Of a stretch of 64,000 nt of DNA, positions 301-6,497 are shown piece by piece; within the stretch, counting starts at the first letter, position 1; each line of letters opens with the position of its first letter. The stretch is from Bacteroidales bacterium (GTDB taxonomy: Bacteria > Bacteroidota > Bacteroidia > Bacteroidales > Bacteroidaceae). Under the pieces are notes generated by a model. It did no database searches, had not been told where the DNA came from, and saw only the letters and a program-made list of their open reading frames with translations. The position numbers and the translations under genes were made by a program. The stretch covers positions 1 to 64,000 of the forward strand of contig SUXT01000002.1 in assembly GCA_015060835.1 (NCBI GenBank), read 5' to 3'.

Positions 301-371
301 TTGTCCCACGAGGATTCGAACCTCGACAAACAGAACCAAAACCTGTTGTGCTACCATTACACCATAGGACA
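301..371 (-). tRNA. tRNA-Gln (anticodon TTG)
   Basis: Minus strand TGTCCTATGGTGTAATGGTAGCAC...ACAGGTTTTGGTTCTGT...GAGGTTCGAATCCTCGTGGGACAA; cloverleaf arms and GGTTCGAATCC T-loop present; anticodon loop TTTTGGT. Confidence 0.93.
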
Positions 372-436: not shown

Positions 437-466
437 GTTTTGTGTTAATTTGCGGCGGAAGAGGCG

Positions 467-674
467 TCGTTCCTGCTCTTAAAGCCCTGAAAGGGCGAAA
501 CTCGTCCCTTCGCGTTTGTAACGCGAAGGATAGAGTATAAGCATCTGTGATGCGCTAAAATAAAACCTATTATGAATCTATGTACTTCAGTCTTCGTTTA
601 TGTAGGTTCAATTGGATTATATAAGCGCATTGTAAATGCTTATACTCAAAGCATCCGCATTGCAAATGCGGATG
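467..674. repeat. Hairpin array, partial family B repeat (copy B1)
   Basis: GCCCT-GAA-AGGGC (484-496), CCTTCGCGTT-TGT-AACGCGAAGG (507-529), GCATC-TGT-GATGC (541-553), GCATT-GTA-AATGC (627-639), CATCCGCATT-GCA-AATGCGGATG (652-674). Start matches B2 and B3. Confidence 0.75.
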
Positions 675-716
675 GACAGGTGAGTTTTTCTCTTTGTTAT
701 TCAGTATGTTACTATA

Positions 717-765
717 ACTCCTCCTCTTGAAGAGGAGGTGGATTCAAAAACTCGTTTTTGAAGAC
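717..765. repeat. Family A repeat module, copy A2
   Basis: CTCCTCTTGAAGAGGAG followed by TTCAAAAAC-TC-GTTTTTGAA and 'gacggaggagttc', as in A1. Confidence 0.7.
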
Positions 766-1073
766 GGAGGAGTTCGAATGTTTTGCTTGTGTATTCAGTC
801 AAACTCCCTCCTCCGTTCGGATACTCCCTGCCCTTAATGCCCTGAAAGGGCAAAACTGTATAGCATAGTCCGTAAGGGCTATGTAAATGCACAACAAACA
901 TACAGCCCTGAAGGGGCGAAACAATAATAACAGCTGTTCATAATTTCGCTCTTACAGGGCTGAGGCTGTATATTCCTATATCCGTAGGCCTCACAGCCTA
1001 CGCTATATAATGTTACCCCTCCGGGGCATTTCTCTATTCCCTTTCAAAATATTGCCACTTACAATATTATCTC
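766..1073. repeat. Long direct repeat, family B copy B2, downstream of the MG2-Sel1 gene
   Basis: Near-identical to 5112-5371: '...gaatgttttgcttgtg..ttcagtcaaactccctcc..ccgttcgg.tactccctgc.cttaa.gccctgaaagggc.aaactgtatagcatagtccgtaagggctatgt...tccgtaggcctcacagcctacgctatataatgtt.cccct.ccggggcatttctctattcc'. Confidence 0.85.
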
Positions 1074-1117
1074 CCGGCGGCACGCTTCTAAAAACTCACA
1101 AGGCATAGGCTCGTTAT

Positions 1118-4100
1118 TTACTTCATCCCCGGTGGCTTGGGGCTGTTGTACATAAAGAATTTAAGCATTTCAAACTCATACACTTTGGCTATTGCAAATT
1201 CGTTGCCCTTTTCGGCAAGCTGTTTGTAGAGCCTGTAAGCAAGCGGGTGGTTCATGTCGGTTCCGCGTCCCTTTTCGTGGCAGTATGCAACATACATCAG
1301 AGCATCTTCGTCGCCAAGCTCGGCTATGGATTTCATCCACATGAAGCTCCTTTTGCGGCTCTTTTTCAGATATTTGCCTTCTGCGAAGCACTTTACTATG
1401 AACCTTTGTGCCTCTTTGCTGCCGTACCGTGCCGCCTTGCGCATATAGTCGATAGCCGGCGATTTGCGCAATTTGCGTTTGCTCAATCCGTTTATAGAAT
1501 CTTGCTCAACATGATGCATGCCTACTTTATATAGCGCCTCCGCATCATTCTGCTTTGCTGCAAGCGTGTACCATTTCAGTGCTTCGTTGCGGTCGGCTGT
1601 TACAAATATTCCCTTTTCGTGGAAGCGTCCTATCATGCGTAGCGACTGCGCATATCCACCGGCAGCAGCCCTGCTGTAATATTCGTATGCCATAGAATCG
1701 CTTTTGTTGACAATCTCTCCATAGTGGTAAATGTCGCCCAAATAGTGCATTGCAAGGTAGTTGCCCTTGTCGGCTGCCATTTCGAAATAGCGCATACCCA
1801 ATACCTTGCTTTCGCTTACCCCCCTGCCATCGTAATAGCATTTTCCGAAGTTGGCAAGGGCCGGAGCAAAGCCATATTTTGCGGCCTCGCGGAAGCGTTC
1901 CATAGCAATCTCATATTCTCCGCGGTCGTAATAGATAAGCCCCTCGTATGTGATGTCCTTGCACTTTGTGATAAGCGTGGGAGGCAGTTCGGTGTTCGAC
2001 AGTTTTTTCCATACCTTCATATATGCTGTTGCGGCCTCTATACTGTCCTGCTTTTCGCGTGTGTTTATGGATGCTGCGTTTCCGTATAGAGTGTTTTTAC
2101 CCCTGCCTTGTATGTCAACATCTATATGCATAGTCTTTGTGCCGTTGAAGAAGGTATATTTTACCTCTCCCGCAGTGTCGCCCTCGACTGTTGGCAACCA
2201 CATCAGTGTGCGGCGGTAATCCTGTGTATGCTCATCGGGTTTTCGCTTGCTGTAGTCGGGCGAGTAGAACTGTTTGCTCTCGGTGTATCCGCGCATCATG
2301 GTGTAGCGTACCTTGTCGGCTTTTGAAAAATCGGGTATGTGTTTGTTGTTCTTTCTCTCTTCCTCGCTGTATGGAATGAAGCATGCAACGTAGTTGGGAT
2401 GTTTGGGGTTGTAATATCCGGATCCCTTTGTTATATTTATTGTATATTCTGGCTTGAATTCCAATACGTTGCCACGCATTCTTTGGTGGAAAAGAAGTGT
2501 GCCCGGGAATCCGTCGATCATGCGATTGTCTTTGGTGGGAATATAGTGCCTTGTGAGAAATCCTTCGGTAAACAAGGAGTCTACTGTGTTGCGAGGGGCT
2601 ATGTCGCTGAACCATCTTGTTGCTTCGTTGACAAACATCTTGCGTAATTTTTCATCGCTTCTGATGACTACCTCCTTGAAGTTCATCATGTAGGAATGAT
2701 CTTTCCTACGGCGCTTCAACAAAAACAGTGCATCGTTGTCAGGAATATATTCGCTGCTGTATTCTCCCTTTACAACCATCGACTGTACCCAATAGGCCCA
2801 ATTGAAATTGTATCGCCAAAAAATGCTTTTGAGTACCATTGCCGGTGTAAGTCCGTTGGTTACTTTATTGAATATCGTGTCTGCCATTTCCCGATAATGG
2901 TTGTCATTGTAAATATCGGCAAGTGTATAATAATAGTCGGCAAGCGCGTTGAAAATTTTTCCGTTACCCGTTTCCTTTATAGGCCTTATTATTTCGTCGC
3001 TGTTTTCTATAGCGTTCTTGCTCCGTTCGTTTACGATGTTGCCGGTGTTTGCAATGTCGAGCGGCACAGCTACCTTTGTAGTGTCAAAATCGCGTTCGAG
3101 ATTGAAGTATGTAACATCCTGAGCATACTCCCATTCATCTACGAAGTTGAAGCGTATTTCGCTGCGGGGCGGGCGGTTAGTTTTATCCTTTTTCTTGTCC
3201 TCTACAATATCCACTTCGGCAAGTTCGTATTGCAGCGGGTTTTTCATTACAACGGTCGTGTCAATGCCGGCAGTGTAGCTTACAGCTTCGCCGGGGGTGC
3301 GCTCCCAATAGCCGTAGAAACGGAACGGTGGCGAGAAATAACGGTCGAGCACAAAGCGTATGCCCGTCATGTTTTTAGTCATGAAAGGTATATATCTTGA
3401 CGAAAGACAAGCTGTTCTGTTTCCATAAAAATCATCCACACGCACTCTGAAACGGCCGTTTCTTGTTGTGTGGAAATAGTATTTTGCGATTGTGTCCTGC
3501 ATGAATCTGAAATTCATTGTGCCGAATTTCAGAGGGTAGAGAAGGAAAGTACCCAACTGCCCCCATTTTTTGTTTGGCTCGCGGGTATATACCTCGCCGC
3601 TCAGTTCAATGCCTGATTCGGCTTGATGGCGAATGTCAATATGGCTGCGTGCCAGTTTGCTCCAGTCGTATGCCGTCCATCCGCGGGTGAGCATCAATAG
3701 GTCAAGTTCTTCGTGGCGGCGGGGATTTTCTGCGTCGAAGTAGCGACCGACATCGGGAATATGCCCCTTTATTTGTGAGCCGAGCAGCGAGTGGGTGTAT
3801 ATGTCGTGTCCGTAGGACATCTTCTGACGGGTGGCAAAGTCGCTTACCGATACTGAGAGATTCGCATCGCCGGCAAGGGGTTTGCCATCTTCGCGTTCTA
3901 TGGTAAGCGTTATTTTCTCATGCGGTTGCAGGATTATATCCTTAGGATTGAGGCCGTTTATTTTTGCTCTTAGGCGTACGGTGGAAATATCACCGTCTGC
4001 AATAGTGTCGTGTGCAACGAAGAATTGTCTTTCGGCAAGCGGTACGCTGTCGGCAAAGAGTATTACGCGGTTAACGCCTTCGGCAAGGTTGCTTAGGGGC

Positions 4101-5080
4101 ATACTGATGCTTTTTTGCTTATCTGTCGAGGAGAATGTCTCATATAGTTGCATATAGCCGTTGTTCACTATTACGCAGCCGAGATTGGTTGTTGATTGCA
4201 GGTTGTTGCCGATGGTGATGTTTATATTGCCATCGGCCTTTTTTGCGGAGAGTGAAAAACCCTCTCTCTCCACTTTGGGAAGGTCGAACTTGAATCTCTT
4301 TTTCTTGCCGTTCTTGTGGCGGGTCATCGATACTTCGGCGCGGTACTTCACTCCTCGGCGGGGTTGCAGTTCGAAGCGTCCCATGCCCAAGAGTACCGGT
4401 GCTGTGCGCAGTATCTCCTTGCCGTCGGCAAGTATGGTTATTGTATCGCCGGCGTGCACACCGTCGTACCCTTTTAGCTCGTATGCAACGGTGGTTGTCA
4501 TTCCATCGACAAGATGGCCTCCTTCGGGGTAGAATTTCAGTTCGGCTTCGGGTAGTTCATTGGTTATCCACTCGCCGTGGTACATGAAACTGCGCTTGCG
4601 ATCGAGCATGTTCTTGAAGTCGTAATTGTCGCCGTTGACTTTGTCGTAGACGGGGAACACTCGGCTGAATATTGCATCTTCGCCCCAGTTGAGCATATAG
4701 CGGGTGTAGGCGCGTATTTCGTAGTATCCCGACAGCAGCGAGGGCTTCAGGTCGAACTCTCCGTGGCAATGGCCATTCTTGTCGAGTTTGTATTTCTTTG
4801 TCTCAACTACATAGCCTTCGGGGGCGCAGAGTTCCACATAGAGCACTTTGCTTATGGGCTTTTCGTTGTCGGCGAGTCCGCTGGTGGTGTATGCCTTGAA
4901 CCACATTGTCTCACCCAAATAGTAGGCTGTGTTGTCGAAGTGCAGATAGACTCTCTCTTGCGGAAACAATTGGTTGACCATTATTGCACGCATGGCAATG
5001 GTGTCCAATGGGGATTGGGCAACGGTGGCTGTGCTGATGAACAGCAACAGGGCGAGGGTATATATCAGTTTGCGTGGCAT
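1118..5080 (-). CDS. Secreted MG2-domain (macroglobulin-like) protein with C-terminal Sel1-like repeats
   Basis: 1320-aa ORF; signal peptide; N-terminus 'QERVYLHFDNTAYYLGETMWFKAY' typical of Bacteroidetes MG2 proteins; C-terminus has repeated A..G...A...LG..Y..G..V Sel1 motifs. Confidence 0.8.
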   Translation of the reverse strand: MPRKLIYTLALLLFISTATVAQSPLDTIAMRAIMVNQLFPQERVYLHFDNTAYYLGETMWFKAYTTSGLADNEKPISKVLYVELCAPEGYVVETKKYKLDKNGHCHGEFDLKPSLLSGYYEIRAYTRYMLNWGEDAIFSRVFPVYDKVNGDNYDFKNMLDRKRSFMYHGEWITNELPEAELKFYPEGGHLVDGMTTTVAYELKGYDGVHAGDTITILADGKEILRTAPVLLGMGRFELQPRRGVKYRAEVSMTRHKNGKKKRFKFDLPKVEREGFSLSAKKADGNINITIGNNLQSTTNLGCVIVNNGYMQLYETFSSTDKQKSISMPLSNLAEGVNRVILFADSVPLAERQFFVAHDTIADGDISTVRLRAKINGLNPKDIILQPHEKITLTIEREDGKPLAGDANLSVSVSDFATRQKMSYGHDIYTHSLLGSQIKGHIPDVGRYFDAENPRRHEELDLLMLTRGWTAYDWSKLARSHIDIRHQAESGIELSGEVYTREPNKKWGQLGTFLLYPLKFGTMNFRFMQDTIAKYYFHTTRNGRFRVRVDDFYGNRTACLSSRYIPFMTKNMTGIRFVLDRYFSPPFRFYGYWERTPGEAVSYTAGIDTTVVMKNPLQYELAEVDIVEDKKKDKTNRPPRSEIRFNFVDEWEYAQDVTYFNLERDFDTTKVAVPLDIANTGNIVNERSKNAIENSDEIIRPIKETGNGKIFNALADYYYTLADIYNDNHYREMADTIFNKVTNGLTPAMVLKSIFWRYNFNWAYWVQSMVVKGEYSSEYIPDNDALFLLKRRRKDHSYMMNFKEVVIRSDEKLRKMFVNEATRWFSDIAPRNTVDSLFTEGFLTRHYIPTKDNRMIDGFPGTLLFHQRMRGNVLEFKPEYTINITKGSGYYNPKHPNYVACFIPYSEEERKNNKHIPDFSKADKVRYTMMRGYTESKQFYSPDYSKRKPDEHTQDYRRTLMWLPTVEGDTAGEVKYTFFNGTKTMHIDVDIQGRGKNTLYGNAASINTREKQDSIEAATAYMKVWKKLSNTELPPTLITKCKDITYEGLIYYDRGEYEIAMERFREAAKYGFAPALANFGKCYYDGRGVSESKVLGMRYFEMAADKGNYLAMHYLGDIYHYGEIVNKSDSMAYEYYSRAAAGGYAQSLRMIGRFHEKGIFVTADRNEALKWYTLAAKQNDAEALYKVGMHHVEQDSINGLSKRKLRKSPAIDYMRKAARYGSKEAQRFIVKCFAEGKYLKKSRKRSFMWMKSIAELGDEDALMYVAYCHEKGRGTDMNHPLAYRLYKQLAEKGNEFAIAKVYEFEMLKFFMYNSPKPPGMK

Positions 5081-5111
5081 AGTTGTTCAATTATCTTTGT
5101 ATTATATGAAA

Positions 5112-5371
5112 TGGAGGGGGTTGAATGTTTTGCTTGTGCGTTCAGTCAAACTCCCTCCCCCGTTCGGGTACTCCCTGCTCTTAAAGCCCTGAAAGGGCGA
5201 AACTGTATAGCATAGTCCGTAAGGGCTATGTTAATTGTTCATAATTTCGCCCCTCCGGGGCTGCGACTGTATGTTCTTGTATCCGTAGGCCTCACAGCCT
5301 ACGCTATATAATGTTGCCCCTGCCGGGGCATTTCTCTATTCCGTTCCAATATTGTCTATGCTGCAATGTTA
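5112..5371. repeat. Long direct repeat, family B copy B3, upstream of the MG2-Sel1 gene
   Basis: Same sequence and orientation as 766-1073, lacking about 60 bp that B2 has in the middle. Confidence 0.85.
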
Positions 5372-5390
5372 TTTACTGTTCTCGTAACAA

Positions 5391-6497
5391 TTAGACTGTT
5401 TGGAAACTGTTAACAGCCGCAATAATTTCGTCTGTCTCAGCCTCGGTTAGCAATGGGTGGAGCGGCAGGCTCAGTTCCTCGCGGGAGAGCCTTTCGGCAA
5501 TGGGGCGCGATAGATGGCTCCACTCGCCGTAGCACTGTTGTTTGTGCGGAGGGATGGGGTAGTGTATTTGTGTCTGTATGCCGTGGGCTTCGAGGTGTTT
5601 TCTCAGTAGGTCGCGCTCGGCCGACATTAGGGGAAATACATGGAATACGTGTGCATCGGAATTTTCTATATGCGGTGTGCGCACGTATGGGTTGTCTATT
5701 TTATCGATGTATTTGCGGGCTATTGCACGGCGACGGTTGTTGTCCTCGTCGAGCCGGCGCAGTTTTATGCGCAGTATGGCAGCCTGAAATTCGTCCATTC
5801 GGCTGTTGATGCCTGCGTGGTTGTGTATGTATTTCTTGTGGCTGCCGTAGTTGTGGAGCGAAGCTATTGTGTCGGCAAGGGTGGGGTCGTCGGTGGTTAC
5901 TGCGCCTGCGTCGCCCAGTGCTCCGAGATTCTTGCCGGGATAGAAGCTGTGTGCGGCTGCGTCGCCAAGAGAGCCTGTACGGCGGTTGTTGTATTGTGAA
6001 CCGTGGGCCTGCGCGTTGTCCTCTATTATCTTTATTCCCCGTTCGCGACAGAATGTGCCTATGGCGTCGCTGTATGCGCATTGTCCGTAGAGGTGTACCA
6101 TCATGTAGGCTTTGGTACGGGGGGTAACAGCTTCGAGCAGTTCCTTTTCGCCTACAAGGTAGGTTGTGGGGTCGACATCTGCAAAGATGGGTGTCAGATT
6201 GTTGTTGGTGATTGCGAGCACCGAGGCTATGAAGGTGTTTGCGGGTACTATTACTTCGTCGCCATCGTGCAGGACGCCCGCTTCGCGGTAGGCGCGCAGT
6301 ATGAGCCATAGGGCGTCGTATCCGTTGCCGCAGGCAATGCAGTATCTGCTGCCGATGTATGCGGCATACTCTTTTTCGAATGAGGCACACTCTTCGCCGA
6401 GCAGGAACCATCCGCACTCTACTATCTGTTGCAGGGCGACGGTTATTTCGGGCTCGTATGAGGCTGTTATCTCTTTAAGGGGAAGGTAGGGTATCAT
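5391..6497 (-). CDS. DegT/DnrJ/EryC1/StrS sugar aminotransferase (FdtB-like)
   Basis: ORF 368 aa; '[14 protein letters not shown]', '[44 protein letters not shown]' PLP-binding motifs. Confidence 0.9.

Follow-up and report, generated by a model that had tools for sequence, protein, structure and literature searches.

Composite REPIN-like repeats bracket an MG2/Sel1 gene that behaves like an exchangeable cassette

Introduction

The window analysed here, a stretch of 64,000 nucleotides that begins at base 1 of its contig, contains two long repeats in the same orientation with one large gene between them. Are these repeats a private duplication that arose with the gene, or do they belong to a wider family, and does the block that they bracket recombine as a unit? 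A preliminary description of the window had proposed that the gene could be excised or duplicated between the repeats. We compared the stretches around the repeats and around the paralogs of the gene in the window's own genome (G000), in a sister species (G033), in congeners and in a sample of the phylum. All of these genomes are short-read draft metagenome assemblies; that of G000 is 86% complete and consists of 158 contigs. The names DegT, MurI, LolC and FtsK are given to neighbouring genes by resemblance.

Results

The repeats are composite and dispersed

The direct repeats were found where the preliminary description had placed them, with the MG2/Sel1 gene as the only gene in between (Table 1). 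Their ends are slightly shorter than proposed, since homology tails off past ∼1050 and ∼5352 rather than at 1073 and 5371. Positions 766–1050 and 5113–5352 are 90.0% identical over 239 aligned bases in a gapped alignment; ungapped comparison gave the blocks 766–888 with 5113–5235 (91%) and 935–1026 with 5236–5327 (87%). The right copy had been credited with about 60 extra bp. In fact, the sole large gap is a stretch of 46 bases that is extra in the left copy (889–934) and contains gccctgaaggggc at 905–917, while the remaining differences are single-base gaps and a small number of mismatches. The window contains the 20-bp core CGTAGGCCTCACAGCCTACG just twice, and 100 shuffled versions lacked it altogether.

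Table 1. Features at the left end of the window
Feature	Position	Strand	Basis
tRNA-Gln (TTG)	301..371	-	Rfam tRNA, 61.3 bits; ARAGORN tRNA-Gln TTG for the corresponding place in congeners
Inserted block, approximate (repeats, gene, repeat)	450..5390	.	Empty-site alignment with congeners
Additional dispersed repeat stretch	471..700	+	blastn, 95-98% matches in C47, C78 and C20
Left copy of the dispersed CTCC-type repeat, with its 64-bp core at 766-829	719..829	+	
First Acido-Lenti-1-like unit of the left doublet	838..883	-	31.3 bits, under gathering score
46-bp stretch in left copy only	889..934	.	Repeat alignment
Second Acido-Lenti-1-like unit of the left doublet	983..1028	+	28.9 bits
Cassette gene (paralog type A1) for an exported 1320-aa protein with a weak MG2 domain and Sel1 repeats	1118..5080	-	
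CTCC-type repeat core, right copy	5113..5176	+	
Acido-Lenti-1 unit over gathering score	5185..5230	-	40.1 vs 37 bits
Acido-Lenti-1-like unit, inverted partner in right doublet	5284..5330	+	30.3 bits
DegT-type aminotransferase gene, right neighbour	5391..6497	-	By resemblance; G033 protein 96% identical

Each repeat copy unites a ∼64-bp CTCC-type element with a doublet of Acido-Lenti-1 (RF01687) units. Within each doublet of the window the units are inverted, with their hairpin-1 sides face to face. The minus-strand unit of the right doublet exceeds the RF01687 gathering score, while the three other units, with 28.9–31.3 bits, remain below it. When the right copy was used as a query, 52 matches were retrieved from G000, which grouped into ∼39 sites; dispersed copies were up to 97% alike, and many of the sites lack an MG2/Sel1 gene. 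The genome-wide dispersal rules out a private duplication of the gene together with its repeats. Nine (−)(+) Acido-Lenti-1 doublets were present in G000, including a four-unit array on contig C16; they are located on C61 (two), C132, C47, C78 and in the C16 array, and no doublet in the opposite order was found in this genome. In the right copy the CTCC core lies 32 bp ahead of the start codon, and this distance is 28–44 bp in other cassettes. We conclude that the window repeats are composite REPIN-like elements, built from a palindromic CTCC-type repeat and an inverted Acido-Lenti-1 pair.

Two further observations concern the shape of these elements. The array on C16 (L121; G000:C16:18467-19657) contains four tandem Acido-Lenti-1–CTCC units with a period of ∼318 bp and no genes in between, and it adjoins a gene for a Golvesin_C/fn3 protein. 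In addition, the CTCC-type repeat, as found at window positions 719–829 and at ∼39 sites in G000, itself resembles an inverted doublet.

Acido-Lenti-1 units flank a clade of Y1 transposases

Searches of the incomplete G000 assembly with the Pfam profile and with the protein of one congener revealed no Y1 transposase, and no transposase of the unit-linked clade described below was found in G000 or G033. A composite transposon of the IS-gene-IS type is not supported, as the repeat copies measure at most ∼310 bp, are devoid of a transposase gene and reside in a genome for which the Y1 search was negative. Y1 matches were, however, detected in 5 of the 44 congeners. Three of these were full length, and each of the three genes has Acido-Lenti-1 units on one or both sides; the Y1 locus accounts for all units detected in G003 and G032 and for three of the four in G027. 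Across the phylum sample, 79 of 396 genomes carried Acido-Lenti-1 units, and Y1 genes were present in 39 of 40 unit-bearing genomes chosen for inspection. Taking the one best-scoring Y1 locus per unit-bearing genome, a unit was located within 1 kb at 9 of 30 loci, which corresponds to P values of 1e-11 to 7e-5 assuming 15 to 100 units per genome. Eight extra Y1 loci (five from phylum genomes and three from congeners) had been picked for suggested adjacency and are kept outside this count.

Across Bacteroidota, the nearest units are usually arranged as unit(−)–transposase–unit(+) around one clade of single-domain Y1 proteins. The doublets of the window have this geometry, minus the transposase. 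In a tree of 38 Y1 rows, 16 of the 17 unit-flanked transposases fell into one cluster, the branch support of which is moderate (83/94) in a tree with several long branches. The unit-flanked label required 2 changes on this tree, compared with a mean of 12.7 after shuffling. Where the motif is intact, it reads Y---Q--HH in nearly every row, unit-flanked or not. This motif marks subclass 1.2 in the scheme of Quentin et al. 2018, who describe its members as generally lacking terminal IS200 structures and list no REP for it (PMC6006769). At seven loci in other Bacteroidota genomes (L211, L213, L216, L222, L228, L233 and L235), different short palindromes, for instance GTTCCGTAGGAACG and CCGTCTGCTTTAGCTGACGG, stand on either side of Y1 genes that share the motif class but lack Acido-Lenti-1 units. 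Since these unit-less members have palindromes of their own, the whole Y---Q--HH subclass may be REP-linked.

Together, the flanking of transposases by units and the matching doublet geometry indicate that the so-called Acido-Lenti-1 RNA is most likely a REP- or REPIN-like mobile DNA. The Acido-Lenti-1 part of the repeats is thus very probably a REP-associated (Y1/HUH) transposase element in non-autonomous form, on the units of which the transposase would act. Our literature search retrieved no publication that links Acido-Lenti-1 to a transposase.

The tRNA-Gln/DegT site is empty in congeners and differently filled in a sister species

In at least five congeners (G002, G028, G035, G025 and G013), the tRNA-Gln and DegT-type genes are adjacent and separated by a short intergenic space, whereas in the window they are set apart by ∼4.9 kb of repeat, gene and repeat. 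An island targeted to the tRNA gene by an integrase was ruled out, because the block was inserted 5′ of tRNA-Gln and contains one large gene only. In the sister species G033, either edge of this site carries repeats, one on contig C22 and the other on C10. The DegT proteins of the two species are 96% identical, and the flank from the FtsK-like gene to the repeat shows 93% DNA identity. Nevertheless, the gene of G033 at this site is another paralog (type B), the product of which is only 46% identical to the window protein but 89% identical to that of the C47 gene, which lies elsewhere in G000.

A second site, with MurI- and LolC-like neighbours, behaved alike. Its flanks are 97–98% identical between G000 and G033, while the resident paralog matches the window gene at 85% in G000 and at 43% in G033. 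At both sites the genes of the two species belong to different subtypes, with their best matches at other sites. By contrast, two family members without nearby repeats, which served as controls, are plain orthologs, with DNA identities of 93.0% (C25/C84) and 96.4% (C127/C183). A third repeat-flanked site (C129/C122), however, has kept the same gene type at 88.6% identity, which counts against exchange. Mosaicism was also evident: the C78 gene and the G033 gene on C105 are 85–98% alike over the first 1440 alignment columns and ∼44–76% alike thereafter.

The empty site in congeners and the different paralog between the same repeats in G033 are in partial agreement with the earlier proposal that the block can recombine as a unit. 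As to the excision or duplication envisaged for this unit, the evidence points equally to exchange with other paralogs; the assemblies showed neither an excision product nor a tandem copy, nor an empty allele within one species. A gene that stays fixed while its repeats vary independently is not the pattern that we observed. On the sequences compared, exchange via the repeats and shared 5′ ends would be the best reading of the site data.

The cassette gene belongs to a variable paralogous family

The window gene is one member of a paralogous MG2/Sel1 family. Its product has a signal-peptide-like start, as judged by eye, and four C-terminal Sel1 repeats (E 9.9e-28), the part to which the coverage by solved structural relatives is confined. 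The MG2 domain is weak (E 4.2e-6; 27.5 bits versus a Pfam cut-off of 32.8). At 5 of the 8 family loci in G000 a repeat lies within 500 bp, for which the chance probability is ∼4e-8 under independence; this association could partly reflect cassettes that were copied together with their repeats. The number of family matches varies widely across the genus, and G002, G028 and G035 contain tandem MG2/Sel1 arrays with no repeat matched alongside. Since such arrays occur without nearby repeats, the family does not need the repeats in order to expand. In one family member (L118; G000:C47:818-3871), the reading frame runs into a dispersed repeat at its 3′ end and the protein is shortened to 1017 aa. 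A search of the Bacteroid- literature for a paper on an MG2/Sel1 protein returned none.

Discussion

Our findings are probably best explained by REPIN-like composites together with repeat-mediated exchange of MG2/Sel1 paralogs. With regard to mechanism, we lean towards a view in which the repeats and the conserved 5′ part of the gene provide portable homology for RecA-type recombination, so that gene types are exchanged and mosaics arise. A repeat-bracketed paralog would have entered the space between DegT and tRNA-Gln in the common ancestor with the sister species. On the gene strand the order is Acido-Lenti-1, CTCC, gene, Acido-Lenti-1, CTCC. If the two copies recombined in a single crossover, the gene would be set free as a circle together with one repeat; were this circle to recombine with another repeat elsewhere, it would be integrated there and once more be flanked by direct repeats. 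Gene types would be swapped by crossovers that join repeats from two cassettes, or a repeat and a conserved gene start. What the sequences appear to record is the outcome of exchange; the event itself, including its direction and timing, we infer.

It is conceivable that ordinary birth and death, combined with fast divergence of a surface-protein family, produced the same picture, with repeats merely accumulating beside non-essential genes. The tandem arrays without matched repeats in three congeners, the widely varying family size in the genus and the many repeat sites that lack the gene would all be expected in that case. Such a history is nevertheless rather unlikely, since it does not account for two sites at which neighbours of 93–98% identity enclose different gene subtypes with best matches elsewhere, nor for the orthology retained by paralogs without nearby repeats or the near-constant distance of the CTCC core from the start codon in the cassettes. 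Alternatively, the apparent exchange could be an artefact of short-read metagenome assembly through the repeats. Misjoins are possible because most cassette contigs of both genomes end in or near the cassette, and repeat copies are highly alike. No independent assembly of the same species was found among the genome contigs searched. Yet the longest exact repeats in the compared loci, across the junctions, reach just 91–113 bp, below typical read length, a single contig in the window takes in the entire cassette, its two repeats and the neighbour on each side, and the two edges of the G033 site carry repeats on two separate contigs. An artefact is therefore improbable.

As for the Acido-Lenti-1 units themselves, they could represent a true small RNA riding inside a transposon. 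They were originally defined as a candidate structured RNA (PMC2864571), and a 2026 paper proposes a regulatory role near protease genes (PMC13298647). This is very improbable in view of the inverted doublets, the tandem intergenic arrays and the flanking of transposases on both sides, as would be expected of a DNA recognition element, and no conserved adjacent host gene was seen. A bolder idea is that a REP-type Y1 transposase moves whole genes. Two repeats and the gene would then constitute a composite element with Acido-Lenti-1 as recognition element, and secreted-protein cassettes would shuttle between fixed sites, such that surface proteins vary by site; we regard this as a long shot.

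Irrespective of how the genes move, the repeats resemble known REPIN/BIME elements and their RAYT (TnpA-REP) transposases (PMC3116915, PMC2817692, PMC6006769) in being multi-copy, short, palindromic and intergenic, in forming inverted doublets (solely (−)(+) in G000), in flanking single-domain Y1 genes in congeners and the phylum, although none was found in G000, and in the pairing of one repeat type with one transposase clade. They differ in having two hairpins per unit and in the subclass 1.2 motif of the linked transposases, for which no REP is listed (PMC6006769). Since inspection by eye of 40 extended units revealed no common GT[AG]G foot of canonical REPs, we refer to the elements as REP-like rather than canonical REP. 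The two-hairpin structure is that of RF01687, for which one window unit passes the gathering score; that family has been presented as an RNA from Acidobacteria and Lentisphaerae, whereas here it appears as a transposase-linked mobile DNA repeat of Bacteroidota. In Tannerella, Acido-Lenti-1 elements have been reported downstream of the genes for miropsin and karilysin (PMC13298647), so that they likewise adjoin secreted-protein genes in Bacteroidales; the authors proposed regulation, and exchange through the element is not proposed in that passage. Paralogs with conserved 5′ and divergent 3′ parts are likewise described for rhs (PMC2935791) and for surface proteins of Porphyromonas gingivalis (PMC5266723). 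In contrast to the mosaics described there, whole genes differ here between sister species at repeat-bracketed sites. An integron array is unlike a 4-kb gene scattered over separate chromosomal sites.

Judged from sequence comparison, the window gene behaves like an exchangeable cassette. If our interpretation is right, an Rfam RNA family without a function would turn out to be the DNA repeat that belongs to a transposase clade with no REP listed so far, and this would affect genome annotation across Bacteroidota as well as recent papers that treat Acido-Lenti-1 as a regulator. It would also provide a concrete, testable case in which dispersed repeats serve as portable homology arms by which closely related gut bacteria exchange members of a family of large secreted proteins at fixed sites.
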